From Nannocystaceae bacterium (GTDB taxonomy: Bacteria; Myxococcota_A; Polyangia; Nannocystales; Nannocystaceae): a stretch of DNA of 64,000 nt. The stretch spans positions 1 to 64,000 of the forward strand of contig JAIBBS010000020.1 in assembly GCA_019694555.1 (NCBI GenBank), read 5' to 3'. Both the position numbers and the translations under genes were made by a program. Shown one piece after another: positions 15,214-57,955 of the stretch (positions are counted from its first letter, which is position 1; each line of letters starts with the position of its first letter). The notes under the pieces are model-generated. The model searched no databases, was not told where the DNA came from, and worked only from the letters and a program-made list of their open reading frames with translations.

Positions 15214-17726
<2,513 letters not shown>

Positions 17727-17730
<4 letters not shown>

Positions 17731-18362
17731 GGGCGCGCAGTCCCGCCGCGCGGTCGATCGGACGGCGACAGACCCCGCTCGATCGCGAGCCGCAGATCGC
17801 GGCGACCGAGCCACAGCTCGATCACGCCGCACGCGATCGCGAGCACGCCGATCACGAGCAGCACCTCGACCACACTGCCACGCCACAGCTGCACCAGCGC
17901 CGCGTCGCTGGCGTCGGCCGCCCGCGCGGCACCGGCGATGCGCCCGCGCAGCGCGACCACGCCCAGCGCGAGCAGGCCCGCGGTCACGCCGAAGCCCAGC
18001 GTCACGCGGTGGGGCCGTGGCGCCAGCGCCAAGCCCGACGCCATCGCGGGGCGGATCGGACCCAGGCGAGAGGCGATCGCGGCCGCGAGCGCGGCGATCG
18101 CCACCGCCGCAGCCGCGAGCGCGAGCAGCAGCACGGCCGCCTGCGACACGGTCGTGACCAGCAGTGTGCGCGCGGCCACGGCGTCCCCGCGCAGCGCCGC
18201 GCCGACCTGGTCGGCGATGCCCGGCGCGACGTCGAACCCGACGCGGCACACCGCGGCCCATGCCACACACGACAGCCCCACGGTCCACCACGCCGACGAC
18301 GGACGCACGCCGGCCTGCCACGCCTTGCGCAGCTGCGCGACCGTCGAGCTCGGCGCCGCCAT
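17727..18362 (-). CDS. FlhB/SctU-like membrane protein without cytoplasmic domain
   Basis: This 211-residue protein has four hydrophobic segments after the N-terminal STVAQLRKAWQAGVRPSS, and ends in ELWLGRRDLRLAIERGLSPS. That layout (basic N-terminal helix, four helices, then a basic RRDLR helix) is that of FlhB/SctU, the switch protein of type III export. The autocleaving NPTH domain is absent. Other export-gate genes lie about 6 kb away on the same strand. Similarity is judged by eye, so an unrelated four-helix protein is possible. It is translationally coupled to priA. Confidence 0.45.
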
Positions 18363-18401: not shown

Positions 18402-18529
18402 GGTTTGCGCGCGTGGGTGCGTCGCGCAGGCCCCGAGCCGGCGATCGCCCCGCGGCCGCGCCGACGCGGCGCTGCGCCCCGGCGCGATCGGTGCCGCGCG
18501 ATCGACCGCGCGCGGGTATGCTGCGCCCG

Positions 18530-20845
<2,316 letters not shown>

Positions 20846-21937
20846 TCAGAAGCCGACGCCGAGCTTGAACGCGACGCGGTCGTAGCTCGCGACCTTCTGC
20901 TGCCACACGAAGGTCGGGCGGATCCAACCCAGCGACGCGTGGATCCACATCCACGGCGCGACCGCGAACTGGGCCCCGAGATCGAGACCCAGGGTGTACA
21001 GCAGCGCGAGGTCGTTGCGACCGAACAGCTCCACGCGGGCCCCGCCCACGCCGCCTTGGAACTCGAGCATCGGCGTGACCACGCCGGGATACTGCATGCC
21101 CAGGCCCAAGCGCTCCATCAGCAACAGGTCGGCACGATCGCCGCGCGCGGCGGCGCGGCCACCTTCGATGCCGAACTCGGTCAGCAGGTTCACGCGCACG
21201 TAGCGACGCAGCGGCGTGACCTCGAGCGACGCGAGGTGCCAGTCCTGCGCGCGACCGAGGCGATCGCGGATGCCGAAGTAGCGGTAGCCGACCACGAACG
21301 CGGCCGAGCGCTTGGGCGGATGCGGCGGCCGGCGATACTCGGGCCGCGCGTCGTCGACCGTCGGCGTCGCGGTGCGCACGATCGCCTTGGTCGGCGTGCG
21401 TGGGTTGGTGCGCGGCGGCTGCGGTGGCGCGGCCTGATCCTCGCGCCGCCAGGTCTCGACCTCCTCGCGCGAGACCAGACGCAGCGGCGCGGCCTCGGCA
21501 CCCGCACCGGCGCCGGCCTTGGGCAGACGCCGCGGCGACGGCTTCTGGAAGCCCGCGGGGCCGTCGGCCTCGATCTCGGGCCCCGGCGGCGGCGGCTCGG
21601 TCGGTGTCGCCGTCGTGGGTGCGCGCGGCGAGGCCCCGGCGGCCGGCGGCGGCGGTGCGCGCTTGCTCGGCGCAGGCGGTGGCGCGGTGGGCGCGCCGGG
21701 CGGCGGCGGAGCAGGCTCGCGCGGAGCAGGCTCGCTCGGTGCCTCGCTCGATGGGGCCTCGCTCGGTGCGGGCTCGCTCGGTGCGGGCTCGCTCGGTGCG
21801 GGCTCGCTCGGTGCGGGCTCGCTCGGTGGCGGCGGGCTCGGTGCCTCGCTCGGCGGCGGGGCCGGCATCGCACGGCCCGGCAGCGGCGGCAGCTTCGGCG
21901 GCCCCAGCACCAACGCGAGCACCAGCGCTGCGATCAC
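20846..21937 (-). CDS. Pro-rich envelope protein with C-terminal beta-barrel-like domain
   Basis: This 363-residue protein has an N-terminal hydrophobic signal (VIAALVLALVLG), then about 150 residues of Pro, Ala, Ser and Glu that include tandem PAPSE pentapeptides. The C-terminal region from about 200 has alternating aromatic strands (AAFVVGYRYFGI, MLEFQGGVGGARV, ending VAFKLGVGF). A terminal aromatic residue is typical of outer-membrane barrels. The Pro-rich part could span the periplasm. GTG overlaps the stop of the upstream lipoprotein, and its own stop abuts that of the RCC1 gene. Confidence 0.65.
   Translation of the reverse strand: MIAALVLALVLGPPKLPPLPGRAMPAPPPSEAPSPPPPSEPAPSEPAPSEPAPSEPAPSEAPSSEAPSEPAPREPAPPPPGAPTAPPPAPSKRAPPPPAAGASPRAPTTATPTEPPPPGPEIEADGPAGFQKPSPRRLPKAGAGAGAEAAPLRLVSREEVETWRREDQAAPPQPPRTNPRTPTKAIVRTATPTVDDARPEYRRPPHPPKRSAAFVVGYRYFGIRDRLGRAQDWHLASLEVTPLRRYVRVNLLTEFGIEGGRAAARGDRADLLLMERLGLGMQYPGVVTPMLEFQGGVGGARVELFGRNDLALLYTLGLDLGAQFAVAPWMWIHASLGWIRPTFVWQQKVASYDRVAFKLGVGF
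21761..21820 (-). repeat. 15-bp coding tandem repeat (PAPSE)
   Basis: Four perfect copies of GCTCGGTGCGGGCTC (plus-strand reading) are followed by a degenerate fifth. They are in frame and encode a Pro-Ala-Pro-Ser-Glu run. Copy number could change by slippage without breaking the frame. Confidence 0.9.
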
Positions 21938-22680
21938 GGCGTGCCTCGCAGCTCGATGGTCGCGGCCATCTCGTCGAGGTCGCCGTCGCTGGGTGCGAAC
22001 AGCGAGCCGAACGCGGCGCGGATGGTTCGCTCGCCGCCGTCGTAGTAGAGCCCGCGCACGTACAGCCCCGGCGGGATCACGACGTCGTAGCGCCACGGCG
22101 TGCCCGCGGCGTCGGTCTTGCGCAGCTCCTGCACGAGCTCGGCCGCCTGCGTCGTCACCAGCAGATCGAGCTCCGCGAGCGCGACGTCCTTGGGCGAGCG
22201 CAGATCGACGTCGAGCAGGCCCGGCAGGTCCGCCGTCGTCGCGTCGGTGCCCAGCCCATCGGTGCCCAGCCCATCGGTGCCCAGCCCATCGGTGCCCAAT
22301 CCGTCGGTCGCCAGTCCCAGGCCGGTGCTGCCGAACAGGCCCTGCGCGGTCGAGGGCAGCAGATCGGCGATCGTGTGATCGCGCGTCGCGGGACCCAGCG
22401 CGAACGCGTGCGTCGGCGGCGAGCCCGACACCTGCAGGCCGAAGATCTCCGCGGGAATCTCGAGCCTGAGCGTGAGCCCGTCGTCCTGCGTCACGTTCCA
22501 CGGCGGCGTGACGTACGTGACGCCGTACGCGTCGTCCTGGCTGCGCCAGGTGGTCACGCCCTCGACGTAGTTCGCGGCATCGCAACCCGTCGCGGCCGCG
22601 AGCACGATCGCCATCGCGCGCGCCCGACGGCGTCGTCGCGAGGTCGCTCCACGGCTGGGATCCAGCGGCACGGCTCCCAC
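21934..22680 (-). CDS. Lipoprotein with GLGTD repeats
   Basis: This 248-residue protein starts at a GTG that supplies an Arg-rich region before the hydrophobic core and lipobox AAATGC; an internal ATG would leave no positive charge. The mature part has an immunoglobulin-like look (LTLRLEIPAEIFGLQV, YDVVIPPGLYVRGLYYDG). A central run of GLGTD pentapeptides interrupts it. It is coupled to the Pro-rich protein by GTGA, so the two probably act together in the envelope. The 201 bp upstream holds nothing recognisable. Confidence 0.65.
   Translation of the reverse strand: MGAVPLDPSRGATSRRRRRARAMAIVLAAATGCDAANYVEGVTTWRSQDDAYGVTYVTPPWNVTQDDGLTLRLEIPAEIFGLQVSGSPPTHAFALGPATRDHTIADLLPSTAQGLFGSTGLGLATDGLGTDGLGTDGLGTDGLGTDATTADLPGLLDVDLRSPKDVALAELDLLVTTQAAELVQELRKTDAAGTPWRYDVVIPPGLYVRGLYYDGGERTIRAAFGSLFAPSDGDLDEMAATIELRGTP
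22246..22320 (-). repeat. 15-bp coding tandem repeat (GLGTD)
   Basis: Three perfect copies of GGTGCCCAGCCCATC (plus-strand reading) are followed by two diverged ones. They encode a Gly-Leu-Gly-Thr-Asp series in frame. Confidence 0.9.
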
Positions 22681-22881: not shown

Positions 22882-24273
22882 TCACTCGATGCGGGCGATC
22901 TCGCTGAGATACCCCGCGGCGTCGCGGTCGAGCGACACCACCGAGATCGAGTCGTCGAGCGTGTTGGCGACGTAGGCGCGCTGCGCGACGGGATCGATCG
23001 CGATCTCGTCGGCGCCCTCGCCCAGCTCGAGCTGCGCGAGCACGCGCCAGCTCGACAGCCCCACGATCGCGAGCTCGCCCTGCGCGTAGCAGCTGACCAG
23101 CGCCAGCGCTTCGCCGTCGCTGGGGCGGTGGATCGCGAGCAGGTTCGGTTGCTCGCACAAAGGCAGCATTCCGACGATGGCGTCGCGCGGGTCGCCGTCG
23201 TCCGCGACGGTGGTGTCGACGCGCAGCAGCGAGGCCGGCGTGGTCTGCACCACCAGCAGCGAGGTGCCGCCGGCGGGATCCTCGAACGCGAGATCGCCGA
23301 GGTACGGCTGCTGGTGCACGCCCTCGGGATTGACGGTCGCGAGCGACGACTCGTCGCCGGGCACCAGCACGTCCAGCCCCGGCGCGACCGCGAAGCGGCG
23401 CACCGACGGGAAGAAGCGCTGGCTGGTGTAGAGCACCGAGCGCGTGCACTCGCGGCTGCCCGCGGGCGGGTTGGCGAGGTCGCACGGCCGCGCGTCGACG
23501 CCGAAGCCGCCGGCGTACTCGGTCTCGTCGAAGGGGTCGCTGCGGTAGAACTCGCCGACCACGTCCGCGAGCTCGGGTCCGAGCTCGCCGTCGAGTGCGA
23601 TCAACGAGATCGCGCCGCCCAGCAGGTGCGGCACGTAGGCGAAGCGGTAGCCCTGATCGTCCACGACCACCCGCGAGGGATCGTCGGGCAGCTCGACGCC
23701 GGGGCGATCGAAGGCCTGGTCGAGCATGTGCACGTCGTCGCACTCGCCGTCTTGGGCCTGGCCGCAGTCGAGCGTGGGACCGCCACCGGACTCGATCACG
23801 TCCATCCACACCACCGCGGCCGGCAGACGCTGCACCGTCAGCAGCCGCAGCGGCCCGCCCTCGCCCCCGGGGCGATCGATCGCGAGGTTGCCGACCGCGC
23901 TGCCCAGCCCGACCGCGGCACCGGGCACGACCATCGCCTTGGCGTCGCAGCGCAGGCGGCCGTCCGCGGGCACGTCCACGCAAGCCTTGCCGCCGCCGTC
24001 CAGCGGCGCCAGATCGAGCGTCAGCACGCCGCCACGCTCCTGCGAGCGATCCCAGTTGCCGTTGGTGACGAACAGCAAGCGGCCCTCGGGCGAGAGCGCG
24101 ACGCCGGTGGGCTGGCGCAGATCGTCGAGCGTCGCCTCGGGCCGATCGCGACCGCAGGCCGCGATGCCCAGCAGCAACGTCCCCGCGATCGCGACGGCTC
24201 GCACGCGCCCCGAGGATGGCACGTTTCGCCCGCGCGGCGTCGCGCCCGGCGGCGCGTCGCGTCCGCGACTCAC
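22882..24273 (-). CDS. Propeller-like lipoprotein in the export-gate operon
   Basis: This 463-residue protein has a long signal peptide with core VAIAGTLLLGIAAC (lipobox GIAAC). The mature part has YVTN/YncE-like repeats (TGVALSPEGRLLFVTN, and EIAIDPVAQRAYVANTLDDSI near the end), so a seven-bladed beta-propeller on the outside of a membrane is likely. It has several Cys pairs. The GTG start overlaps the sctT stop as GTGA; two further GTGs downstream would also precede the signal. Being the last gene of a type III gate operon is unusual. Confidence 0.7.
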   Translation of the reverse strand: MSRGRDAPPGATPRGRNVPSSGRVRAVAIAGTLLLGIAACGRDRPEATLDDLRQPTGVALSPEGRLLFVTNGNWDRSQERGGVLTLDLAPLDGGGKACVDVPADGRLRCDAKAMVVPGAAVGLGSAVGNLAIDRPGGEGGPLRLLTVQRLPAAVVWMDVIESGGGPTLDCGQAQDGECDDVHMLDQAFDRPGVELPDDPSRVVVDDQGYRFAYVPHLLGGAISLIALDGELGPELADVVGEFYRSDPFDETEYAGGFGVDARPCDLANPPAGSRECTRSVLYTSQRFFPSVRRFAVAPGLDVLVPGDESSLATVNPEGVHQQPYLGDLAFEDPAGGTSLLVVQTTPASLLRVDTTVADDGDPRDAIVGMLPLCEQPNLLAIHRPSDGEALALVSCYAQGELAIVGLSSWRVLAQLELGEGADEIAIDPVAQRAYVANTLDDSISVVSLDRDAAGYLSEIARIE

Positions 24274-25016
24274 GGCCCCAGCAGCACGCGCGTGCGCGCA
24301 GCCTCGAGCGCGGCCTCGGGCACCGCCGGCAGCGCCGACGCGCCCCAGCGTGCGGCATCGATCGCCCACGACGCCCCGAGCGCGGCGAGCACCGCGGCGA
24401 GCCGCAGCATCGGCGTCACCGCGGACGCGAGCACCGGCGCCACACCGGGGCCGCGCGAGGCCACCGCCGCGAGCAGCTCGACCGCGACCGCGGCGAGCAA
24501 CGCCGGGGTCGCGAGCGCGAGCGCGAGCGTGGTCGCCGACGTGATCGCGGCGATCGACCACGGCCCGAGCTGCGCGACGGCGGGGATCCATGCCTGCGGA
24601 TCGCCCAGCGGAAACAGCGAGCCCAGCGACACGTTGCCCTGCAGCGCCGCGTGGTGCAGCCCCAACGCCAACGCCAGCGCGCTCACCAGCGCGAGCACCA
24701 GCGCGACGAAGCTGGCCGGCGGCGTCCGCAGCACCAGCGCGGAGGTCGTGGCCGCGCCGATCACCGCGTGGGTCGGCCACGCGAGCACGAGCCCGATCAC
24801 GGTGCCCAGCACGAGCTCGGCGATCAGCGCCGGCACGAAGCCCCAGGCGAGCACGGGCGCGCCGCCGCCGGGCAGCGACAACGCGAGCACGCCGCCCAGC
24901 AGCGCGGCCACGGCCCAGCTGGTGCCCGGCATCGCCGCGCGCAGGCCCGGCTGCACGCGCACGATCGCGAAGCAGCGCGCGAACGCCAGCACCAGCGCGG
25001 CCACGACCGCGTTCAT
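24270..25016 (-). CDS. sctT: Type III export-gate protein SctT/FliR
   Basis: This 248-residue, all-helical membrane protein of FliR/SctT type forms, with SctR and SctS, the helical gate through which type III substrates pass. Hydrophobic helices fill the whole length. ARCFAIVRVQPGL near the start and the central FVPALIAELVLGTVIGLVLA match the family pattern of an early PxL motif and a conserved Glu-containing helix. ATG overlaps the sctS stop. Whether it belongs to a flagellum or an injectisome cannot be told from this gene. Confidence 0.8.
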   Translation of the reverse strand: MNAVVAALVLAFARCFAIVRVQPGLRAAMPGTSWAVAALLGGVLALSLPGGGAPVLAWGFVPALIAELVLGTVIGLVLAWPTHAVIGAATTSALVLRTPPASFVALVLALVSALALALGLHHAALQGNVSLGSLFPLGDPQAWIPAVAQLGPWSIAAITSATTLALALATPALLAAVAVELLAAVASRGPGVAPVLASAVTPMLRLAAVLAALGASWAIDAARWGASALPAVPEAALEAARTRVLLGP

Positions 25017-25282
25017 GGCCCGCGCCCGAGCGCGCCCAGCTGCTGCCACGCGGCCGCGGTGTGCTCGGTGAGCTGCGTGGCCCAGCCGGCGCCGAAGGCC
25101 GCGATCGCGGCGAAGACCGCGACCGCCCGCAGCAGCAGCCCCAGCGTCGGATCGGTCAGGCCCAGTGCGCGCGTGAGCACGGCGGTCGCGAGCACGCCCG
25201 CGACCGCGGCGGCCACCAGCGGCAGCGCGATGAGCAGCGCCACCGCGAAGCCGTCGTGGACCGTGGCCAGCGCCTCGTTCAC
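25013..25282 (-). CDS. sctS: Type III export-gate protein SctS/FliQ
   Basis: This 89-residue protein has the two-helix hairpin of FliQ/SctS: an ALLIALPLVAAAVAGVLATA helix with the conserved Pro, a linker ending TDPTLGLLLRAV (compare TQIQDPTLSF in relatives), and a second helix. SctS packs around the SctR5-SctT1 gate. It lies between sctR and sctT with GTGA and ATGA overlaps, the canonical R-S-T order. Confidence 0.82.
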   Translation of the reverse strand: MNEALATVHDGFAVALLIALPLVAAAVAGVLATAVLTRALGLTDPTLGLLLRAVAVFAAIAAFGAGWATQLTEHTAAAWQQLGALGRGP

Positions 25283-25908
25283 GCGTAGCCCTCGATGAGC
25301 CCGCCGACGATCACGGTCCAGCCGCCGACCGCGAGGAAGAGCAACAGCTTGAGCGGCACCGACACCAGCGCGACCGGCAGCTGCGTGAAGCCCAGCAGCG
25401 TGACCGCCTGGGCCACGAGCAGGTCGACCACGACCAGCGGCACCAGCACCACGACCGCCATCGTCAGCGCCTCGCGCAGCTCGGTGACCAGGAAGCCCGG
25501 CACCACCACCAGCGGATCGTCGAGCGTGCGCTGCTGCAGCGACGAGAAGAACTCGAGCTCGCCGGCATCGGCGTGGCGCTGCAGGAACGACAGCCACGGC
25601 GCTGCGGCATCGAACCATCCGCCGCCGGCCGCGACGCCCGCGAGCCCGCCTTGGGCCTCGACCTCGCCCCACACGGCGCCGGCGGTCGGCGCCATCACGA
25701 TCGCGGTCACGACCAGCGCCAGCGCCAGCATCACCGGCAACGGCAGCAGCGCCTCGGCGCCCAGGCCCACGCGCACCGCTCCCAGCAGCACCGACGACTT
25801 CGCGAACGCCGTCGCGACCACCAGCACGATCGGCACGATCGCGAGCCACGCGAGCGAGCCCGCGCCTGCGTCGAGCTCAGCCACCTTGGTCCCAGCCCCC
25901 GCGTCCAC
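25279..25908 (-). CDS. sctR: Type III export-gate protein SctR/FliP
   Basis: This protein of up to 209 residues is clearly FliP/SctR, the pentameric gate subunit. The C-terminal block has [42 protein letters not shown] and [11 protein letters not shown], all near family consensus. The N-terminal half has [13 protein letters not shown] in place of the usual TSFTRIIIVLSFLR. No cleavable signal is evident. The first GTG overlaps the FliO-like gene by 32 nt; a second GTG at 25884 would reduce this to 8 nt. Confidence 0.88.
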
Positions 25909-26227
25909 GGGTGCCGCCCGCGACGATCGGCGTGCCGCCGCGGACGCCCGTGGGCTCGCGCGGGCCGTCGTTCTTCACCGCGCGCAGCCGATCGCCCAGG
26001 TCGCACAGCAGCGTCGGCGCGGCGCCGGTGCCGGCACCGACGACCAGCCGCCGGTCCTCGATCACGACCACGTAGACCGCGTGCTGCGGCGAGAGCCGGA
26101 TGGTCCGCAGCACCTGCGGGTCGGCCTGACGGGCCCGCCGTCCCAGGAACGCCAGCACGCCCGCGAGCGCCGCGAGCACGAGACCGACTTCGACCAGGAC
26201 CAGGGCAGACGACGCCGCGAGCAGCAT
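25877..26227 (-). CDS. FliO-like protein, first gene of the export-gate operon
   Basis: This 116-residue protein has one N-terminal membrane helix (about 3-28) and then a small beta domain ([20 protein letters not shown]) that matches the FliO pattern, followed by a disordered Gly/Arg-rich tail. FliO is a chaperone for FliP assembly in flagellar systems and is usually missing from injectisomes. TACCGT lies 6 nt before the ATG with no ribosome-binding site, so it is probably leaderless. Confidence 0.6.
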
Positions 26228-26233
26228 GCGACC

Positions 26234-26261
26234 ACGGTAGGCCGCCGCCCCGTGGCGACAA
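26234..26261 (-). promoter_or_regulatory. Promoter of the export-gate operon
   Basis: TTGTCG, 16 nt, then TACCGT, 6 nt before the first start codon. The -35 element uses the last T residues of the rplQ terminator. Confidence 0.55.
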
Positions 26262-26286
26262 AAAAACCCGCAGAGATCCTGCGGGT
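26258..26286 (-). terminator. Intrinsic terminator of the alpha operon
   Basis: The perfect 8-bp stem ACCCGCAG/CTGCGGGT has a 5-nt loop and, on the minus strand, a run of about seven T residues. It is 57 nt past the rplQ stop. Confidence 0.92.
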
Positions 26287-32184: not shown

Positions 32185-33612
32185 CTAGTCGGTCATGCAG
32201 ATGCGGTATTGGCTGGGCAGGATGTCGATGGGGTACAGCAGCGCGAAGTTGAAGCACATCTCGTCTTCGGTGCGCTCGCCGAAGTGCACGTCGCTGCCGC
32301 CGGGATTGTCGTAGGTGCACGTCGTGGTCAGCGAGTCGCCGGCCTTGATCACGAACGGCGGCTCGTGCGGATACGAGATCTGGTTGTCGAAGCTGAACGC
32401 GGGCACGTCGACCAGGGTCATGTCCTGACCGTCGCGCGTGACCGTGGTGTTGAACTTGCGGCCGAGCCCGTGCATGTGCGGGAAGCTGGCCATCACGTTG
32501 AGATCGACCGGCAGGAAGTTCGTGATCGCCGACGGGCAGTGCCCCACCGCGTCGACGCCGGTGGCGCCGGCGGGCACGTCGATCGTCGTCGTGCCCAGGG
32601 TCAGCACGCCCGCGGTGTGCTCGCGCGGCGTGTCGGTGGTGCAGAAGGCCACGCCGCTCTTGTCGAACGCGTCGGCGTGGTGATCGGTGTTGTGGTAGTG
32701 GACCTGCAGGATGAAGTAGTCGTCGGGGCCGCCGAGCTCGAGCCCGACGTCGTCGGGCATGACGAAGTTCTGCCCGCCGGGCGCCCAGCCCGACACGAAC
32801 ACCGCGTCGCTGGGCATGTCGCACGGGCCCGCGCCGCCATCGACCTGCGGCTGCTGCGTGCGGAACAGGATCCAGTGGTGCAGCACGCGCTCGTCGTCGG
32901 TGATCGGCGCCCACGCGGTGCCCTGCAGCGTGCCGTTGAACGGCGACGCGAAGGTGAAGCACATGTAGAGGTTGTCGGCGCCGCTCTCGGGCACGTGGAA
33001 CGGCTCGTCGCTGCCGTCGCCGGCGGCCGCGACGAAGGTGTGGCTGGGCTCGCACGGCAGCGCGTCGGGACCGACGCCGGTGTCGCCCTCGGTGTCGCCG
33101 GTGGTGCCGCCGCCGCAATCGTCGGCGTTGCCCGCGGGCGCGCCCGCGTCGAACCACGCGTGCAGCACGGCCTTGTCCGCGTCGGACATGACCATGTTCT
33201 CCGGCATCGGCGCGACCGGATCCTCGATGCGCATGTCGGCGAGCTGGTACACCGCCATCGTCGGCATCGTCACCGCGGGCACCTGCCAGTCGTCGATGCT
33301 CGCGAGCGACATCGGTGCGCCGTAGAGCCCGTCGGGCGGCGCGTGGCACAACAGGCAGTTGCGCTCGACCACGTCGGCGACGTCGCACGGCAAGCCCGTG
33401 GTGCCGCCGCCGGTGGTCCCGCCACCGGAGCTGTCGACACCGCCACCGCTGCTGCCGCTCGCGGCGGTCGTGCCCGAGCCGGTGCCGTCGTCGCAACCGG
33501 CCAGGCCGCAGGTCCCCTCCGCGCTGGTCGTCTCCGCGATGCCGCTCGAGTCCCCGCCGCATGCGGCGACCCACGCGACGAACCACATGCACACTCGGCT
33601 GCGCTGGCGCAT
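32185..33612 (-). CDS. Lipoprotein with one heme site and a copper monooxygenase (PHM-like) domain
   Basis: This 475-residue protein has signal MRQRSRVCMWFVAWVAAC and a Ser/Gly/Thr linker. A short cytochrome-like segment has one heme site, CLLCH, near 85. Residues about 180-475 look like an ascorbate-dependent type II copper monooxygenase: HHW near 245, HYHN near 305, and HMH in FPHMHGLGRKF near 378, all candidate copper ligands. It probably hydroxylates or oxidises a substrate at the cell surface. An in-frame ATG at 33639 would give a longer signal. Confidence 0.75.
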   Translation of the reverse strand: MRQRSRVCMWFVAWVAACGGDSSGIAETTSAEGTCGLAGCDDGTGSGTTAASGSSGGGVDSSGGGTTGGGTTGLPCDVADVVERNCLLCHAPPDGLYGAPMSLASIDDWQVPAVTMPTMAVYQLADMRIEDPVAPMPENMVMSDADKAVLHAWFDAGAPAGNADDCGGGTTGDTEGDTGVGPDALPCEPSHTFVAAAGDGSDEPFHVPESGADNLYMCFTFASPFNGTLQGTAWAPITDDERVLHHWILFRTQQPQVDGGAGPCDMPSDAVFVSGWAPGGQNFVMPDDVGLELGGPDDYFILQVHYHNTDHHADAFDKSGVAFCTTDTPREHTAGVLTLGTTTIDVPAGATGVDAVGHCPSAITNFLPVDLNVMASFPHMHGLGRKFNTTVTRDGQDMTLVDVPAFSFDNQISYPHEPPFVIKAGDSLTTTCTYDNPGGSDVHFGERTEDEMCFNFALLYPIDILPSQYRICMTD

Positions 33613-49869: not shown

Positions 49870-50031
49870 ATGAGCGTGCTTTATGCGCTGATCCCGTTTG
49901 CGGCCGTCATCGTTGCGGCCGCGCTGCTCGCGTTCCGCTGGGCCATCCGGTCCGGCCAATTCGACGACCTCGACACCCCTCCCCTGCGCGTGTTGTTCGA
50001 CGAGCGCGCCGAAGGCGAGAGCAAGCCATGA
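49870..50031 (+). CDS. ccoS: cbb3 oxidase assembly protein CcoS
   Basis: CcoS (53 residues) is a small one-helix protein needed to insert heme b and copper into cbb3 oxidase. [20 protein letters not shown] is followed by the signature [15 protein letters not shown]. It is unusual as the first gene of the operon; it is usually placed after ccoI. ATGA overlap with ccoNO. Confidence 0.92.
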
Positions 50032-52163
50032 CCCAAGTCACCGTCCGCTACGACGACGCCATCGTTCGCCGCTTCGCGCTCGCCACCCTCGTCTGGGGTG
50101 TGGTCGGCATGCTCGCGGGCCTGTGGCTCGCACTCGAGCTCGCGAGCCCATCGCTCAACCTGGGCATCCCGCAGATCCAGTTCGGCCGCCTGCGTCCGCT
50201 GCACACCAACGCCGTCATCTTCGCGTTCGTCGGCAACGGCATGTTCGCCGGCATCTACTACTCGACCCAGCGACTGCTCAAGGCGCGCATGTTCAGCGAC
50301 ATGCTGTCGAAGGCCCACTTCTGGGGCTGGCAGCTCATCATCGTCTCGGCCGCGCTGACGCTGCCGATGGGCGTGACCTCGGCCAAGGAGTACGCCGAGC
50401 TCGAGTGGCCCATCGACATCGCGATCGCGCTGGTGTGGGTCGTCTTCGCCATCAACCTCTTCGGCACCCTGGCCAAGCGCCGCGAGAAGCACCTGTACGT
50501 GGCGGTGTGGTTCTACATCGCGTCGGTCGTGACCGTCGCGATGCTGCACATCTTCAACTCGCTGGCGATCCCGGTCTCGATCTTCAAGAGCTACTCGGTC
50601 TACGCCGGCGCCCAGGATGCGCTGGTGCAGTGGTGGTACGGCCACAACGCGGTGGCGTTCTTCCTGACCACGCCGTTTCTCGGGCTGATGTACTACTTCA
50701 TGCCCAAGGCGGCCAAGCGCCCGGTCTACAGCTATCGGCTGTCGATCATCCACTTCTGGGCGCTGGTGTTCCTCTACATCTGGGCCGGTCCGCACCACCT
50801 GCTCAACTCGGCCATGCCCGACTGGGCGCAGTCGATGGGCACGGTGTTCTCGATCATGCTGCTGGCACCGAGCTGGGGCGGCATGATCAACGGTCTGCTG
50901 ACCCTGCGCGGCGCGTGGGACAAGCTCCGCACCGACCCGATCCTGAAGTTCTTCGTGGTCGCGCTGACCTTCTACGGCATGTCGACCTTCGAGGGGCCGA
51001 TGATGTCGCTCAAGTCGGTCAACGCGCTGTCGCACTTCACCAACTGGACCATCGCCCACGCCCACGCTGGTGGCCTGGGTTGGAACGGCTTCTTCATCTT
51101 CGGCATGCTGTACTGGCTGATGCCGCGGCTGTGGAGGACGCAGCTGCACAGCCAGGCGCTGGCGACTGCGCACTTCTGGCTGGGCCTGCTGGGCATCGCT
51201 GCCTACGTGCTCAGCATGTGGGCCGCCGGCATCAGCGAAGGCCTGATGTGGAAGGAGTTCGACGCCGACGGCCGCCTGGTCTACAGCGCGTGGGCCGAGA
51301 TGGTCCCGCCGCTCGCGGCGATGTACTGGGTCCGCGTGCTGGGCGGCGCGATGTTCATCAGCGGTCTGCTGGTGATGGTGTGGAACCTCTACAAGACCTG
51401 GCAGAGCCGCGGCACCGTCGCCGACGAGACCGTGGAGATCGAGGTCGCGGACAAGCCTGCCGAGGCGACCTCCAGCGTCGACTGGCACCACCGCCTCGAG
51501 GGTCGCCCGCTCGCGTTCACCCTGGGCGTCACCGTCGCGGTCGCGGCCGGTGGTCTGTTCGAGATCATCCCGTCGATGGCGATCAAGTCGAACATCCCCA
51601 CCATCGCCGCGGTGCGACCGTACACACCGCTCGAGCTCGCGGGCCGCGACGTCTACGTCTCCGAGGGCTGCGTGAACTGCCACTCGCAGATGGTGCGGCC
51701 GTTCCGCGAGGAGACCCTGCGCTACGGCGAGTACTCCAAGGCAGGTGAGTACGTGTTCGACCGCCCGTTCCTGTGGGGCTCGCGTCGCCTCGGTCCCGAC
51801 CTGCAGCGCGTCGGCGGCAAGTACCCCGACCTCTGGCACTACAACCACATGCTCGACCCGCAGTCGATGTCGCCGGGCTCGCTGATGCCGTCGTACCGCC
51901 ACCTCTTCGACGAGGAGCTGGTGCTCGACGACATCGAGAAGAAGGTCGCCATCTTCCACGACACCTTCGATGCACCGTACACCGCGTACGAGCTCGACCA
52001 CACCGAGATCCTCGCTCGCGCCCAGGCCGGCCAGATCGCCGACGGGCTGGTGCAGCAGGGTCTGCCGGATGTCCGCACCAAGAAGATCGTCGCGCTCATC
52101 GCCTACCTGCAGCGGCTCGGGACCGACATCCGCGCCGCCGCAGCCACGGAGACCGCCGGATGA
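50028..52163 (+). CDS. ccoNO: Fused cbb3 cytochrome oxidase subunits I and II (CcoNO)
   Basis: This 711-residue fusion joins the catalytic subunit CcoN and the monoheme subunit CcoO of the high-affinity proton-pumping oxidase. In CcoN, His59, His344 and His346 are heme ligands, His206 and His256-257 bind CuB, and Tyr250 is the cross-linked tyrosine. A linker near 470-505 leads to a membrane helix and the CcoO heme site CVNCH near 548-552, with the [13 protein letters not shown] motif later. Fusions are known but not common. All essential ligands are present. Confidence 0.97.
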
Positions 52164-52348
52164 AGGCCGAAGTCCTCTCTCGTACCGACCTGTTGTTCCT
52201 GCCGGAAATCGCCCTGGTCGTGTTCATGGCCGTGTTCGTCGGCGCGCTGTGGCTGGTGCTGCGGCCCGGCGCCAAGCAGGCCTACGCACGCCACGGCTTC
52301 ATCCCGCTCGACAACGAACCCAACGACGACTCCGAGGTGGCGCCATGA
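52160..52348 (+). CDS. ccoQ: cbb3 oxidase subunit CcoQ
   Basis: CcoQ (62 residues) is a one-helix subunit that stabilises the complex. The helix is at about 15-34 ([20 protein letters not shown]), followed by [18 protein letters not shown]. Its start overlaps the ccoNO stop, and its stop overlaps ccoP, both as ATGA. Confidence 0.9.
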
Positions 52349-52893
52349 GCGACGTACCCGACCGCAGCTTCGACTACGACTACGACGGCATCCAGGAGTA
52401 CGACAACCCGCTGCCGCGCTGGTGGGTCTACCTCTTCATCGGCACGATCATCTTCGCGGCCGTGTACTACCCGTACTACCACTTCGGTAGCGGCAAGTTG
52501 CCGTCGCAGCAGTGGGCCGAGGACATGGAAGAGTGGAACCGGCTGCACCCGCCGGTGCCGCTGCCCAACGAAGACGAGCTCATGCCGATGTCGAGCGACA
52601 AGGGCGTGCTCGAGCGCGGCAAGGGCGTGTTCGCGACGCGCTGCGTCTCGTGCCACGGCCCCGACGGCGGCGGCCAGGTCGGCCCCAACCTCACCGACGA
52701 CTACGCCATCCACGGCTACTCGCGCGCGAACATCGTCAAGGTCGTCAACGACGGCGTCGCGGCCAAGGGCATGATCGCCTGGGGCCCGCAGCTGTCGCGC
52801 GAGGACGTCGTGGCCGTGGGGCTGTACGCGTACAGCCTGCGCGGCAGCAAGCCCGCCAACCCCAAGGCGCCGCAGGGCGACCCCATCCGCTGA
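52345..52893 (+). CDS. ccoP: cbb3 oxidase cytochrome subunit CcoP, one-heme form
   Basis: CcoP accepts electrons from soluble cytochromes. This 182-residue protein has the N-terminal ending PLPRWWVYLFIGTIIFAAVY (membrane helix) and one heme site CVSCH at 100-104, followed by GPNLTD. Ordinary CcoP is about 300 residues with two hemes; here only one cytochrome domain is present and the end is a short Pro-rich tail. There is no frameshift sign, so the short form appears native. Confidence 0.93.
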   Translation: MSDVPDRSFDYDYDGIQEYDNPLPRWWVYLFIGTIIFAAVYYPYYHFGSGKLPSQQWAEDMEEWNRLHPPVPLPNEDELMPMSSDKGVLERGKGVFATRCVSCHGPDGGGQVGPNLTDDYAIHGYSRANIVKVVNDGVAAKGMIAWGPQLSREDVVAVGLYAYSLRGSKPANPKAPQGDPIR

Positions 52894-52912
52894 TCGCAGC
52901 ACGAGCACGACC

Positions 52913-54301
52913 ATGGACGCACCGCAGACACCGCTCGAGGCCCCCAAGACCATCGGTCAGGGTGGACGCCGCGTGTGGCTCTACCCGGAGTGGTTCCGCG
53001 GCCGCATGCTCACCTGGCGCACCGCCGCGCACTGGCTGCTCATCGTCGCGCTGCTGATCGGACCGTGGGTCGACATCGGTGGGCACCCGGCCACGCGCAT
53101 CGACATCCCCGGGCGCCGCATCCACTTCTGGGGCCTCACGCTGTTCGCCACCGACGGCGTGTACCTGCTGTTCCTGTTCGGCTTCGTGGTCTTCTCGGTG
53201 TTCCTGTTCACCGCGCTGTTCGGGCGCGTGTGGTGCGGCTGGGCCTGCCCGCAGACGGTGTTCCTCGAGTCGTTGGTGCGACCGATCGAGCGCTGGATCG
53301 AGGGCTCGGCGGCGCAGCGACAGAAGCTCGACGCGGCGCCGTGGACCGCGGGCAAGATCGGCCGCAAGCTCGCCAAGTACGCCGCGTACCTCGTCATCGC
53401 GGGCGGCGTGGGCACGACCTTCACGGCCTACTTCCTCGGCCGCGCCGGCACCTTCGAGGCGCAGCTGCACCCCAGCAGCCACCCCGCGGGCACGTTCACG
53501 TTCCTCTTCATCACCGGGTTGTTGCTGTTCGACTTCGCGTACTTCCGCGAGCAGACCTGCCTGGTGGTGTGCCCCTACGGCCGCTTCCAGTCGGCGCTGC
53601 TCGATCGCAACTCGCTGACGGTGGTCTACGACGCGCCGCGCGGCGAGCCCCGCGGCAAGAAGGGCACCGCCGGTGCCGGTGACTGCGTGGACTGCCGTCG
53701 CTGCGTCACGGTGTGCCCGACCGGCACCGACATCCGCCGCGGCGTGACGATGGAGTGCACGCAGTGCATGGCCTGCATCGACGCGTGCGACGACATCATG
53801 GCGAAGCTGCATCGCCCCGTCGGCCTGATCCGGGTCGCGAGCGAGAACGCCATCGCCAAGGCGCCGACGCGCATCGTGCGGCCGCGGGTGATCGCGTACG
53901 CGGTCGGCCTGGTCGCCGTGCTGGTGGCGTTCGGCATCACCGCGGCCCACCACAGCGAGATCGAGCTGGGCCTGAGCCGCGTGGTCGGCACGCCCTACAC
54001 GACCCTGCCCGACGGCCGCATCCAGAACGCGATGCAGCTGCGGATCTCGAACAAGGGCGAGCAGCCGCACGAGTTCACGGTCGAGCCCGTGACCAGCGGC
54101 ATGGAGCTGCTCACGCCGATCTCGCCCTTTGCGGTGAAGCCCGGCCGCGTCGAGCACATGCCGGTGTACCTGCTGCGCGCGCCCGCGGACGTCCGCGATC
54201 GTCACGAGACCGTGCGCCTGCGCGTGCGCGACGAAGGTGAGTTCAGCAAGGAGATCGACGCGCAGTTTCTCGCGCCCGATCCCGCAGGAGGTTCGCGATG
54301 A
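52913..54301 (+). CDS. ccoG: cbb3 assembly protein CcoG, polyferredoxin
   Basis: CcoG (462 residues) is a membrane iron-sulfur protein that reduces copper for oxidase assembly. It has several membrane helices, the WCGWACPQT motif near 107, CPYGRFQS, and two Cys-rich clusters (DCVDCRRCVTVCPTG near 258 and ECTQCMACIDACD). The periplasmic C-terminal Ig-like domain begins near 380. ATGA overlap with ccoH. Confidence 0.95.
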   Translation: MDAPQTPLEAPKTIGQGGRRVWLYPEWFRGRMLTWRTAAHWLLIVALLIGPWVDIGGHPATRIDIPGRRIHFWGLTLFATDGVYLLFLFGFVVFSVFLFTALFGRVWCGWACPQTVFLESLVRPIERWIEGSAAQRQKLDAAPWTAGKIGRKLAKYAAYLVIAGGVGTTFTAYFLGRAGTFEAQLHPSSHPAGTFTFLFITGLLLFDFAYFREQTCLVVCPYGRFQSALLDRNSLTVVYDAPRGEPRGKKGTAGAGDCVDCRRCVTVCPTGTDIRRGVTMECTQCMACIDACDDIMAKLHRPVGLIRVASENAIAKAPTRIVRPRVIAYAVGLVAVLVAFGITAAHHSEIELGLSRVVGTPYTTLPDGRIQNAMQLRISNKGEQPHEFTVEPVTSGMELLTPISPFAVKPGRVEHMPVYLLRAPADVRDRHETVRLRVRDEGEFSKEIDAQFLAPDPAGGSR

Positions 54302-54813
54302 ATGCCCCCGTGACCGTGCCGGTCGTGCAACCCAAGCGGCGCTCGCCGTGGCCGTGGGCGCTCGCGCTGGGCCTGGGCCTGGGCGTCGGCGGCAACCTGT
54401 GGATGGTCTCCATCGCGCTGTCGCACCGCTCGGCGCTCGAGCCCGGGGACCACGAACACGACGCGGTCGCGTTCGACGAGGTCATCGCGACGCGACGCGC
54501 GGCCGCGGCGCTGAACTGGCGCGTCGAGCTCGATCGCTGCCAACCCGGCGCCAGCGGCTGCACCCTGCGGGTGGACGTGACCGACGCGCACGGTGCAGCG
54601 GTGCCCGGGCTGGCCGGCACCATCGAGGCCCGGCGCAGCGACGACGCCTCGCTCGATCGCAGCGCGCCGCTGCGCCCGCGCGAGGGCGGCGGCTACGAGG
54701 TCGCGCTGCCGCTGGTGCGACCGGGCTTCTATCGCCTCGCCATCACGCTGCAGGGCGGCAGCGCGCCGTGGGTCGGCGAGCGCGAGCTGCTGTGGGATCC
54801 GCCGGAGACGTGA
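54298..54813 (+). CDS. ccoH: cbb3 assembly protein CcoH/FixH
   Basis: This 171-residue FixH-like protein has one membrane helix (about 16-40) and a periplasmic beta domain (WRVELDRC, LRVDVTDAHGAAVPGLAGTI, RPGFYRLAITLQG). FixH takes part in copper supply to the oxidase with CcoI. The sequence is diverged but position and layout fit. Confidence 0.88.
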   Translation: MNAPVTVPVVQPKRRSPWPWALALGLGLGVGGNLWMVSIALSHRSALEPGDHEHDAVAFDEVIATRRAAAALNWRVELDRCQPGASGCTLRVDVTDAHGAAVPGLAGTIEARRSDDASLDRSAPLRPREGGGYEVALPLVRPGFYRLAITLQGGSAPWVGERELLWDPPET

Positions 54814-55526
54814 CGCCGATGTTCGGCATGCTGCTGTCGATCGTCGTGGCCAGCGTGCTGGGCAGCCTGCACTGCGCGGCGATGTGCGGCGCGATCGCGA
54901 CGGTCGTGGGCACCGCGCACGGCGAGGGCGGTCGGTGGCGGCGGCTGCTCGCGTACCACGGCGGCCGCGGCCTCGCCTACGTCGGGCTCGGTGCGATCGC
55001 CGGCACCGCCGGCGCCGGCATCGATCGCGCGGCGCTGGCGACCAGCGGCGCACACGACGTCGCGCGCATCGCCATGGGCGCAACGCTGTTGATCTTCGCG
55101 CTGCGGCCGTTGTTCGCCCGCTGGCGCGCGCGCTCGGGCACGGTGCCGCTGCGGCGGGGCCCCGCGCGCACCGCAGGCTGGCTCGCCCGCGCGCTCGCGA
55201 ATCGACGCGGGCCCGGCTGCGCCAGCGTCGGCCTGCTCACCGGCGCGATGCCCTGCGGATGGCTGTGGAGCTTCGCCCTCGCCGCGGCCGCGACCGCGAG
55301 CCCGGGCACCGGTGCGCTGGTCATGCTCGCGTTCTGGCTCGGCACGCTGCCGAGCCTGCTCGGCGTGGGCGCGATCGCAGCGGTGGTCGGTCCGCGGCTG
55401 GGTCGCCACGCGCCCACGCTGACGGCGATCGTGCTGGTGCTCGTCGCGATCGCGACCATGGCCGGTGCGATCGGCCCCGGCGCCGGCGCGGACGACCAGG
55501 AGGCCCCGTGTTGCCACCACGAGTGA
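54810..55526 (+). CDS. SafE/DsbD-like membrane protein of the oxidase cluster
   Basis: This 238-residue protein with about six helices has the family motif VLGSLHCAAMCGAI near 17-30 and a second GLLTGAMPCGWLW motif, the cysteine-containing helix pair of DsbD/CcdA-like proteins. Such genes are regular members of cco clusters and probably help copper transport or thiol transfer. It ends CCHHE, a possible metal-binding tail. GTG overlaps the ccoH stop as GTGA. Confidence 0.88.
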   Translation: MTPMFGMLLSIVVASVLGSLHCAAMCGAIATVVGTAHGEGGRWRRLLAYHGGRGLAYVGLGAIAGTAGAGIDRAALATSGAHDVARIAMGATLLIFALRPLFARWRARSGTVPLRRGPARTAGWLARALANRRGPGCASVGLLTGAMPCGWLWSFALAAAATASPGTGALVMLAFWLGTLPSLLGVGAIAAVVGPRLGRHAPTLTAIVLVLVAIATMAGAIGPGAGADDQEAPCCHHE

Positions 55527-57955
55527 GCGAAGGGCCCTGCGCCCACTGCGGCCAGATGGCGCCGGCGGGGCCCGAGCCGCGCTTCTGCTGCAGCGGCTGC
55601 GAGACCGTCTACCACGCGCTGTCGGCCTGCGGCCTGGACGGCTACTACGCGATGCGGCGCGAGCTCGCGGCGACGCCCGAGCCCGGTGCGACGCGACCAC
55701 GTTCGCGCGACCACGCTGGCCTCGACGACGCCGATCGGCTCGCCGAGCACGGCTTCTCGCCCGGCCACGTGGTGCTGCGCCTGACCGGGCTGCACTGCGC
55801 CGCGTGTGTGTGGCTGCTCGAGCGCCTGCCCAAGGTGCTGCCGGGGGTCGAGCGCGCGCGCGTCGACTTCGGCAAGGCCACGCTCGAGCTGCGCTACGAC
55901 CCCCAGCGCGTGGCGCTGTCGCGCATCGCGGACTTCGTGTTCGACCTGGGCTACCCCGCGCGGCTGGTCGCGGCCGAGGCCGAGGCCGATGCGCGCAAGC
56001 GGACGCGCGCGCAGCTGTGGCGCATCGGCGTGACCGGGGCGCTGGCGGGCAACACCATGATGGCGGCGTTCGCGTTGTACGCGGGCGAGCTGTCGGGCAT
56101 GGAGGCGGGCTTCGAGCGCCTCTTCACCCTGCTCGGGCTGGTGTTCGCGCTGCCGGTGGTGACGTGGGGCGCGATGCCGTTCTACCGCGGTGCGCTCGCG
56201 GGCCTGCGCATGCGCACGTTCCACATGGATCTGCCGATCGCGCTGGGCATCATCGCCGGCTTCTCCGGCAGCCTGGTCAACGCCGCGCGCGGCAACGGCC
56301 ACGTCTACTTCGACACCGTCGCGATCCTGGTGTTCTTGCTGTTGCTGGGTCGCCACCTGCAGACCTGGGGGCAGCGGCGCGCGCAGACCCGCGGCGAGCT
56401 CATGGCCACGCTGTTGCCCGCGCACGCGTACCGGCTCGAGGACGGCGCGTGGGTGCGCGTGCGCGCGGACAAGCTCGCGCCCGGGGATCGCGTGCGCGTG
56501 GCCGCCGACGCGCAGGTGCCTGCGGACGGCGAGATCGTGGCCGGTGCCGGTCACGTCGACGTCGCGATCCTGACCGGCGAGTCGGTGCCCGAGGCGGTCG
56601 CCGTCGGTGCGACGGTGTTCGCCGGCGCGACCAACGTCGGCGGCGCGTTCGAGCTGCTGGTGCGCAAGGTCGGCGCCGACACCCGCCTGGGCACCATCGT
56701 CGCGCGCGCGTGCGACGACGACACCCGCGTCGCGCCGATCGTGCGGCTGGCCGATCGCATCGCGGGTTGGTTCGTGCTCGCGGTGCTCGTGCTCGCGGCG
56801 CTCGGCGGCGTGCTGTGGTCGACCCTCGACGGCGCGCGCGCGTTCGACGTCGTGGTCTCGCTGCTGGTGGTGTCGTGCCCGTGCGCGCTGGGCCTGGCCA
56901 CGCCGATGGCGCTGTCGGTCGCACGCGGCCGCGCCGGCCACCAGGGCCTGATCCTGCGCTCGGCCGCGGCGATCGAGCCGCTCGCCCGCGCCCGCCGCAT
57001 CGTGCTCGACAAGACCGGCACGCTCACCGAGGGGCGCCTGCGCATCGTCGCGTCGTCGGTGCCCGCGTCGGCGCTGCCGTGGATCGCCGCGATGGCGCGG
57101 CGCAGCCGTCATCCCATCGCGCGCGCCGTCGCAGGCTGGGCCGACACCGAGGGCCGCGCGAGCGCCAGCGTCGAGGACTTCGTCGAGCAGGCCGGCCTGG
57201 GCATGTCGGCAATGGTGGACGGCACGCCGGTGCGCATCGGCAGCGCGCAGTGGATCGCCGCCGACGACCCGGCCGTCGCGCGTGCGCTCGCGGCCGCGCA
57301 GACGCCGGTCGTGATCGAGCGTGCCGGCGTCGTGGTCGGCGTGGTCGCCGTCGCGGATCGCATCCGCGACGAGACCCCCGAGGTGCTCGCGCGGCTGCGG
57401 CGGCTGGGCCTGTCGATCGCACTGCGCAGCGGCGACCATCCCAACGTCGTCGCGGCCGTGGCCGCGCGGCTGGGCCTGGACGACGCGCGCGGCGGTTGCT
57501 CGCCCGAGGACAAGGCGGCGCTGGTGTCCCAGACGGCGTCGATCATGGTGGGCGACGGCATCAACGACGCTCCGGCGCTGCGTGCCGCGGCCGCGGGCAT
57601 CGCGGTCAGCGGTGGCGCCGAGGCTGCGCTCGCGGTCGCCGACGCGTATGCGACCACCGGAGATCTGCGCAGCGTCGCCGTGCTGCTCGAGGGCGCTCGC
57701 GCGACCGGCCGCGTGGTGATGCGCAACCTCGGGTTCTCCCTGATCTACAACGTCGTCTTCGCCTCGCTCGCGCTCGGCGGCGCCATCACGCCGCTGCTCG
57801 CGGCGATCCTGATGCCGATCTCGTCGCTGACGGTGATCGGCAGCTCCCTGGTGGGCGGCGGCTTCCGCGGGCCAGCACACGCGAATTCTTTGCCGTCGGG
57901 CGCAGACGCGCCGCAATCGTTTCAACTGGCAGCCGCACCGCCGTGCTCTAAATGA
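55523..57955 (+). CDS. ccoI: Copper-translocating P-type ATPase CcoI
   Basis: CcoI exports copper to the cbb3 oxidase assembly site. The 810-residue ATPase has an N-terminal CAHCG-CCSGC metal-binding segment, an HMA domain with GLHCAACVW near 88, the CPCALG ion site near 451, DKTGT near 495, HP in SRHPIARAV, and GDGIND near 676. The start chosen is the GTG that overlaps the preceding stop as GTGA; another in-frame GTG lies 15 nt upstream. The last 30 residues are a variable tail. Confidence 0.96.
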   Translation: MSEGPCAHCGQMAPAGPEPRFCCSGCETVYHALSACGLDGYYAMRRELAATPEPGATRPRSRDHAGLDDADRLAEHGFSPGHVVLRLTGLHCAACVWLLERLPKVLPGVERARVDFGKATLELRYDPQRVALSRIADFVFDLGYPARLVAAEAEADARKRTRAQLWRIGVTGALAGNTMMAAFALYAGELSGMEAGFERLFTLLGLVFALPVVTWGAMPFYRGALAGLRMRTFHMDLPIALGIIAGFSGSLVNAARGNGHVYFDTVAILVFLLLLGRHLQTWGQRRAQTRGELMATLLPAHAYRLEDGAWVRVRADKLAPGDRVRVAADAQVPADGEIVAGAGHVDVAILTGESVPEAVAVGATVFAGATNVGGAFELLVRKVGADTRLGTIVARACDDDTRVAPIVRLADRIAGWFVLAVLVLAALGGVLWSTLDGARAFDVVVSLLVVSCPCALGLATPMALSVARGRAGHQGLILRSAAAIEPLARARRIVLDKTGTLTEGRLRIVASSVPASALPWIAAMARRSRHPIARAVAGWADTEGRASASVEDFVEQAGLGMSAMVDGTPVRIGSAQWIAADDPAVARALAAAQTPVVIERAGVVVGVVAVADRIRDETPEVLARLRRLGLSIALRSGDHPNVVAAVAARLGLDDARGGCSPEDKAALVSQTASIMVGDGINDAPALRAAAAGIAVSGGAEAALAVADAYATTGDLRSVAVLLEGARATGRVVMRNLGFSLIYNVVFASLALGGAITPLLAAILMPISSLTVIGSSLVGGGFRGPAHANSLPSGADAPQSFQLAAAPPCSK

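Follow-up and report, generated by a model that had tools for sequence, protein, structure and literature searches.

What is a type III export gate, built on SctR, SctS and SctT, doing beside ribosomal-protein genes in the genome of a bacterium that encodes a complete flagellar gate elsewhere? Such a gate is the membrane channel of the type III exporters with which bacteria assemble flagella and injection needles. The question is raised by a 64,000-nucleotide stretch of DNA from a Nannocystaceae bacterium (contig JAIBBS010000020.1, positions 1-64,000, genome G000), which we refer to as the window and in which four small membrane-protein genes overlap one another and are followed by the gene of a lipoprotein. 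The answer that we favour, with moderate confidence, is that they encode the inner-membrane portion of a type III export apparatus that is non-flagellar and the second in its genome, driven by the proton motive force (PMF), vertically inherited and reduced from a fuller non-flagellar type III secretion system (T3SS) of the Polyangia; it would be a reduced version of the non-flagellar T3SS of myxobacteria that has no ATPase and probably runs on protons. The features on which this reading is built are given below in the direction of transcription, with the evidence for each in brackets; the gene caller was home-made, so that certain start positions are uncertain.

26256-26286, minus strand: intrinsic terminator between rplQ and fliO, a perfect 8-bp stem followed by a T-run (sequence, RNA fold)
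25877-26227, minus strand: FliO-like protein with a single transmembrane segment, 116 amino acids (aa), first gene of the unit (PF04347, TIGR03500, motif)
25279-25884, minus strand: SctR/FliP homologue, 201 aa (PF00813)
25013-25282, minus strand: SctS/FliQ homologue, 89 aa (PF01313)
24270-25016, minus strand: SctT/FliR homologue, 248 aa, strongly diverged (PF01311 below cut-off, hhalign)
22882-24204, minus strand: lipoprotein with a 7-bladed beta-propeller of the YncE/YVTN/lactonase type, 440 aa (AlphaFold2, Foldseek, profiles)

The four gate genes overlap by 8, 4 and 4 bases, with sctR, sctS and sctT in canonical order. SctR scores 125 bits against PF00813 (cut-off 26.9), and its PDB profile matches are limited to FliP and SpaP; SctS reaches 25.5 bits against PF01313 (cut-off 25), its family profile aligning with that of FliQ over 89 columns in hhalign (E 1.1e-9); SctT, at 19.6 bits, lies under the PF01311 cut-off of 27.8 (the protein of one Nannocystis member scores 25.7 bits) and is identified by profile-profile comparison with FliR (hhalign E 1.7e-6, 180 columns). 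The FliO-like protein falls slightly below the cut-off of PF04347 (21.1 bits, E 3e-4), scores 24.3 bits against TIGR03500, carries the conserved motif H..hVv...gRrLLvGtGpsG.P.LL.eL and has a hidden Markov model (HMM) match in 23 of 23 loci checked. The original prediction of overlapping FliO-like, SctR, SctS and SctT genes leading into a lipoprotein gene is confirmed by these scores and by the conserved gene order, and the profile search that it proposed placed SctR and SctS above their Pfam cut-offs and FliO and SctT below them; its extent for the locus, 22882-26227, takes in the right genes and omits two further members, a barrel-like gene and a remnant of SctU, both described below. Because a terminator hairpin (RNA fold z -3.8; not listed by the pattern scan) stands between rplQ and fliO, the gate appears to be a unit separate from the upstream ribosomal-protein genes.

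The window contains no SctV, T3SS ATPase or basal-body gene, as had been stated. The flagellar locus of its genome is complete, with FlhA, FlhB, FliR, FliQ, FliP and flagellins on contig C8 and FliF, FliG, FliE and the flagellar ATPase on contig C151, and because this locus has its own gate, the gate in the window is the second, additional one of its genome. The original prediction had counted such a locus against itself; the locus exists, but it makes the window's gate additional and does not refute it. Of the three homologues for which a genome search had been suggested, SctV is present in a second copy, whereas the single T3SS ATPase match and the matches to PF01514 (FliF/SctJ) lie within the flagellar locus only; neither in G000 nor in the Nannocystaceae relatives examined was a dedicated ATPase (SctN/FliI) or a FliF/SctJ ring found for the window's gate. 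The second, divergent SctV is encoded alone on contig C372 (25081-26958), with a tryptophan-dioxygenase-like gene on one side and Mce/ABC genes on the other, and scores 391 bits over its N-terminal half and 43 bits over its C-terminal domain, which is kept but weakly conserved. In most family genomes the solitary sctV adjoins a tryptophan 2,3-dioxygenase-like gene, and in several of them Mce/MlaD-MlaF genes.

In trees of SctR and of SctV, whose non-flagellar sequences are all from Polyangia, the Nannocystaceae form one clade (support 100/100) outside an 11-member flagellar clade (support 100), and the non-flagellar copies of other Polyangia are placed between the two. The complete flagellar locus in the window's genome might suggest that the second gate serves the cell's own flagellum as an alternative or auxiliary one, but that flagellum has a full gate of its own, the clades are separate, and 16 family genomes in which no flagellar FlhB, FliF or FliI was detected still have the second gate; we regard this explanation as so improbable that we reject it.

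Those 16 genomes belong to a broader comparison of the Nannocystaceae (family set f1), which include Nannocystis (N. poenicansa, N. pusilla), Enhygromyxa salina and Paraliomyxa miuraensis. An SctR orthologue occurs in 27 of 29 family genomes (in G005 and G015 confirmed by synteny), and the two genomes without it are 65-71% complete. Twenty-four further genomes, 8 flagellated and 16 non-flagellated, were examined for the full parts list, and the divergent SctR is present in all of them. FlhB, FliF/SctJ and the T3SS ATPase were found only in the eight flagellated members, never more than one of each, and HMM searches detected none of the three in the 16 non-flagellated genomes, among them complete Nannocystis genomes in a single or few contigs, an absence that is not proof at this sensitivity, given that PF01312 missed the SctU described below. 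A weak T3SS-ATPase match in G006 was read as the F1-ATPase beta subunit. The divergent SctV is kept in 14 of the 16 non-flagellated genomes, and no T3SS parts other than the gate and this solitary SctV were found there, which lends good support to the original suggestion of a reduced or repurposed export gate. The order FliO-SctR-SctS-SctT-propeller recurs far beyond chance in the Nannocystaceae loci fetched, with the propeller gene adjoining sctT in nearly all of them (the G014 locus has no propeller); no secretin, needle or rod gene was seen in the window or in these loci, and no genome-wide search for them was made.

Further downstream lies another part of the gate, directly upstream of priA.

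17727-18362, minus strand: SctU/FlhB remnant, 211 aa, consisting of the four-helix transmembrane domain only (hhalign, Foldseek, synteny)
15214-17730, minus strand: priA, a Polyangia-wide synteny marker outside the machine (Pfam PriA domains)

The Pfam score of this protein is only 10 bits (E 0.49), and the possibility that SctU is wholly absent was rejected on the strength of profile-profile comparison and synteny: its family profile aligns with FlhB (hhalign E 4.7e-8, 203 columns) and with the SctU of other Polyangia (E 5.3e-10), control comparisons with FliP, FliQ and FliR give E 0.08-0.7, and the order SctU-PriA is also found in the Polyangia families f4, f13 and f23. FlhB is its sole PDB sequence match (E 0.37), and the top Foldseek match of its model is FlhB chain 6s3l_K of the FliPQR-FlhB complex (TM-score 0.55), with an E of 1.8 that is insignificant by itself, so that only the rank is used. 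The remnant retains the N-terminal PS..R...A...G signature and ends in the linker; the NPTH autocleavage/cytoplasmic domain of a full SctU/FlhB is absent, and no second Bac_export_2 match was found in the profile search of the genomes. It was found by profile in 11 of 23 loci, several of the others ending before that position. The curated cut-offs thus overlook both SctT and SctU in the Nannocystaceae gate. FlhB is known to wrap FliPQR with its four helices and loop (PMC7064499).

Residue conservation bears on whether such a gate still works. In SctV, D45, R85, R94, R147, E150, R154, D158, D199, D208, D249 and R270 (E. coli FlhA numbering) are kept in 15 of 15 sequences, and PMF-driven export in Salmonella depends on the acidic residue D208 of FlhA, which is essential for it (PMC3139655). 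The methionine gasket (M-loop) expected of a functional type III pore is lost from SctR, the third and last Met being present in 0 of 22 sequences and the first in 4 of 22, against 11 of 11 in flagellar FliP, and the M-loops of the Nannocystaceae are polar; across ~2500 homologues the first and last Met are 99% conserved (PMC8239009). SctS has the salt-bridge pair D46/R54 in 14 of 14 sequences. An aspartate at position 46 of FliQ is rare; the substitution E46D was recovered as a suppressor after the M-loop had been deleted, and homologues with D46 tend to have polar M-loops (PMC8239009). Because the loss of the gasket in SctR is matched by D46/R54 in SctS, the paired changes suggest a working pore that would still be under selection, rather than one in decay.

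Decay is what the losses would otherwise bring to mind, with the locus as the slowly degenerating remains of a lost non-flagellar T3SS that has no present function. The ATPase and ring were not found, SctU is truncated, the gasket is gone, SctS, SctT and SctU are very diverged, and the homologous Myxococcus systems were themselves formerly termed degenerate (PMC3459982, PMC10196010). Yet reading frames, gene order and start/stop overlaps are conserved over about 12 genera; the ratio of nonsynonymous to synonymous substitution rates (dN/dS) within Nannocystis is 0.12-0.57, well below 1 (the values of 0.4-1.0 for distant pairs were discarded as uninformative, dS being near saturation); and in G011, where the block has been relocated away from the ribosomal genes, the gene set is intact and still together. 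With the invariant charged residues of SctV and the matched changes in SctR and SctS, these observations make a relic unlikely. The retained charged network of SctV beside the lost ATPase, switch domain and gasket would also suit a complex of SctRST, with or without SctU, and SctV that now conducts protons or other ions, or is coupled to signalling or motility, exports no protein and has the propeller as its periplasmic sensor, for which the control of twitching by homologues of the flagellar T3SS (FT3SS) in non-flagellated Lysobacter is a precedent (PMC7277350). The C-terminal domain of SctV, although weakly conserved, is still there, however, and the compensatory D46/R54 pair suggests that the pore can still open, so that we hold this complex to be fairly unlikely.

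Where the gate came from is indicated by fuller relatives. Gates of the Polyangia families f4, f9, f11, f13 and f23 share with it the order FliO-SctR-SctS-SctT-(barrel)-SctU-PriA, with a barrel homologue in f4 and f23, and a solitary SctV; most of the genomes with this fuller set add a second T3SS ATPase, accompanied in four loci by an upstream FliH/SctL-like gene, and by profile comparison f13 has an SctU of full length, f23 one that is partly degraded and f4 a truncated one. The Polyangia families thus form a graded reduction series that ends in the Nannocystaceae. In several Polyangia the non-flagellar T3SS seems to have been broken up into genes that are scattered over the genome. The FliH/SctL-like gene of the non-flagellar ATPase loci L208-L211 (f13, f9, f4) encodes 187-220 aa and is preceded in L209 and L211 by a further gene of 272-292 aa, of a family not recognised, possibly a part of the sorting platform. 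Loci L133, L134, L135 and L143 (f8), L148 (f22) and L224 (f11) have fliO and sctR together beside lon or other genes, with no adjacent sctS or sctT. Genes of ~810-820 aa beside gates elsewhere were rejected as missing parts, being Lon (f8) or PriA (f4, f13, f23).

Of the systems described by others, the Myxococcus 'Myxo' non-flagellar T3SS and the needleless T3SS* are likewise non-flagellar myxobacterial apparatuses without secretin or needle (PMC3459982, PMC12075869). FliO is present in them, as it is in the Nannocystaceae gate, and the claim that FliO is unusual in non-flagellar systems is untrue for Myxococcota, for which it had already been reported (PMC12248157). In Myxococcus the genes are clustered in compact loci that include an ATPase, SctJ and a sorting platform, whereas in the Nannocystaceae ATPase and SctJ were not found, SctU is transmembrane-only, SctV is unlinked and the propeller is fixed in the operon. 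A survey of 17 myxobacterial genomes, including Nannocystis exedens, found T3SSs mainly in Myxococcales (PMC10196010); if our reading is true, relatives of the non-flagellar T3SS extend beyond the Cystobacterineae. The flagellar FliPQR-FlhB-FlhA assembly and the gate have homologous FliO/P/Q/R and FlhA, the FlhA charged residues and the FlhB transmembrane fold in common, whereas the gate is without the FlhB cytoplasmic domain, FliF, FliHIJ and the methionine gasket, belongs to a separate clade and occurs in non-flagellated species. Lysobacter enzymogenes, likewise a predatory non-flagellated bacterium, has FT3SS-like export-gate genes in a new role (PMC7277350), but it has retained FliI and FlhB and is able to export flagellin, whereas in the Nannocystaceae gate the ATPase is undetected and the switch domain missing. 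An identical core protein set, of FliPQR/FlhA type, has been proposed for membrane nanotubes and for a hat-shaped structure of the inner membrane that is linked to the flagellar T3SS (PMC9380563), and a basal complex of this kind (CORE-type) might be envisaged here; FlhB, however, is only a remnant and nothing in the locus suggests tubes, which leaves it very unlikely.

The propeller lipoprotein starts with GTG at 24204, 65 bases downstream of sctT, has the lipobox IAAC and is modelled by AlphaFold2 with a mean predicted local distance difference test (pLDDT) score of 87.8, with Foldseek matches to YncE/lactonase/YVTN structures (E 1e-9) and profile matches to 1l0q/YncE. Type III substrates are without a Sec-type lipoprotein signal. 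Since the propeller bears one, a substrate is the less likely reading and a periplasmic partner the better one, the latter role being suggested by the conservation of the operon, and the proposal that the gate serves the lipoprotein is unsupported in that form. Two genes lie between the propeller and the SctU remnant on the same strand.

21934-22614, minus strand: signal-peptide protein with a GTDGL tandem repeat, family not recognised (cluster c19)
20846-21937, minus strand: probable outer-membrane beta-barrel protein, 363 aa (sequence features, HMM homologues)

Neither has a Pfam match. The repeat protein is conserved in 7 genomes, that is, in part of the Nannocystaceae, and its gene is translationally coupled to the barrel-like gene (GTGA overlap). 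The barrel-like protein combines an N-terminal hydrophobic stretch, a Pro-rich linker and a barrel-like C-terminus with a final Phe, and has homologues in gate loci of families f4 and f23 (HMM E 1.4e-19 in G099, 1.8e-11 in G113). Within the Nannocystaceae its gene occurs in the gate loci of flagellated members and of the partial genome G015, and was not found in the non-flagellated loci examined; this restriction may reflect phylogeny or function and is not used as evidence.

From these parts we infer how the apparatus would be assembled and driven, what it would export and what the lipoprotein and barrel would contribute. SctR, SctS and SctT would build the pore with the assistance of FliO; the switch-less, transmembrane-only SctU would wrap it, giving a complete gate that has no specificity switch; SctV would couple export to the PMF; and a small set of cytoplasmic proteins would most likely be moved across the inner membrane by the PMF alone, with the propeller lipoprotein as a partner on the periplasmic side of the exit, followed in some lineages by the outer-membrane barrel. 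That predatory bacteria thus have a minimal exporter of SctRST, transmembrane-only SctU and SctV, naturally free of ATPase, switch and ring, powered by the PMF only and delivering to the periplasm or onward through propeller and barrel, is a tentative proposal to which we give slightly less than even weight. Several points weigh against the favoured reading. The lost gasket, the shortened SctU and the fast-evolving SctS, SctT and SctU would also fit a loss of protein transport; SctV is encoded far from the gate, and their putative partnership is deduced from their common distribution and the agreement of their trees; since Pfam failed to detect SctU, an ATPase in truncated form or an SctJ of extreme divergence may have escaped detection as well; no outer-membrane exit was found in the non-flagellated members; and the gate is a putative exporter for which no substrate is known.

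In Salmonella, export can proceed weakly when FliI is missing (PMC7277350, PMC3139655), and ATPase-free export is known there only as a weakened mutant state. Evolution in the Nannocystaceae appears to have dispensed with the ATPase, the ring and the switch of SctU and to have retained the gate together with a proton-coupled SctV; if this is true, the minimal energy and gating needs of type III export could be tested in cultured Nannocystis and Enhygromyxa.

Among the other genes of the window, a large protein with ~14 RCC1 repeats and the lipobox LASAC is encoded on the plus strand (18518-20845), flanked by the barrel gene and the SctU remnant, a position at which its gene is kept in five Nannocystaceae loci. 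The window also encodes a copper type II ascorbate-dependent monooxygenase, peptidylglycine-monooxygenase-like (32185-33612, minus strand), of a family better known from animals, and a cbb3 oxidase/Fix operon (50028-57955, plus strand) in which CcoN and CcoO are fused (COX1 and FixO in a single 711-aa frame).

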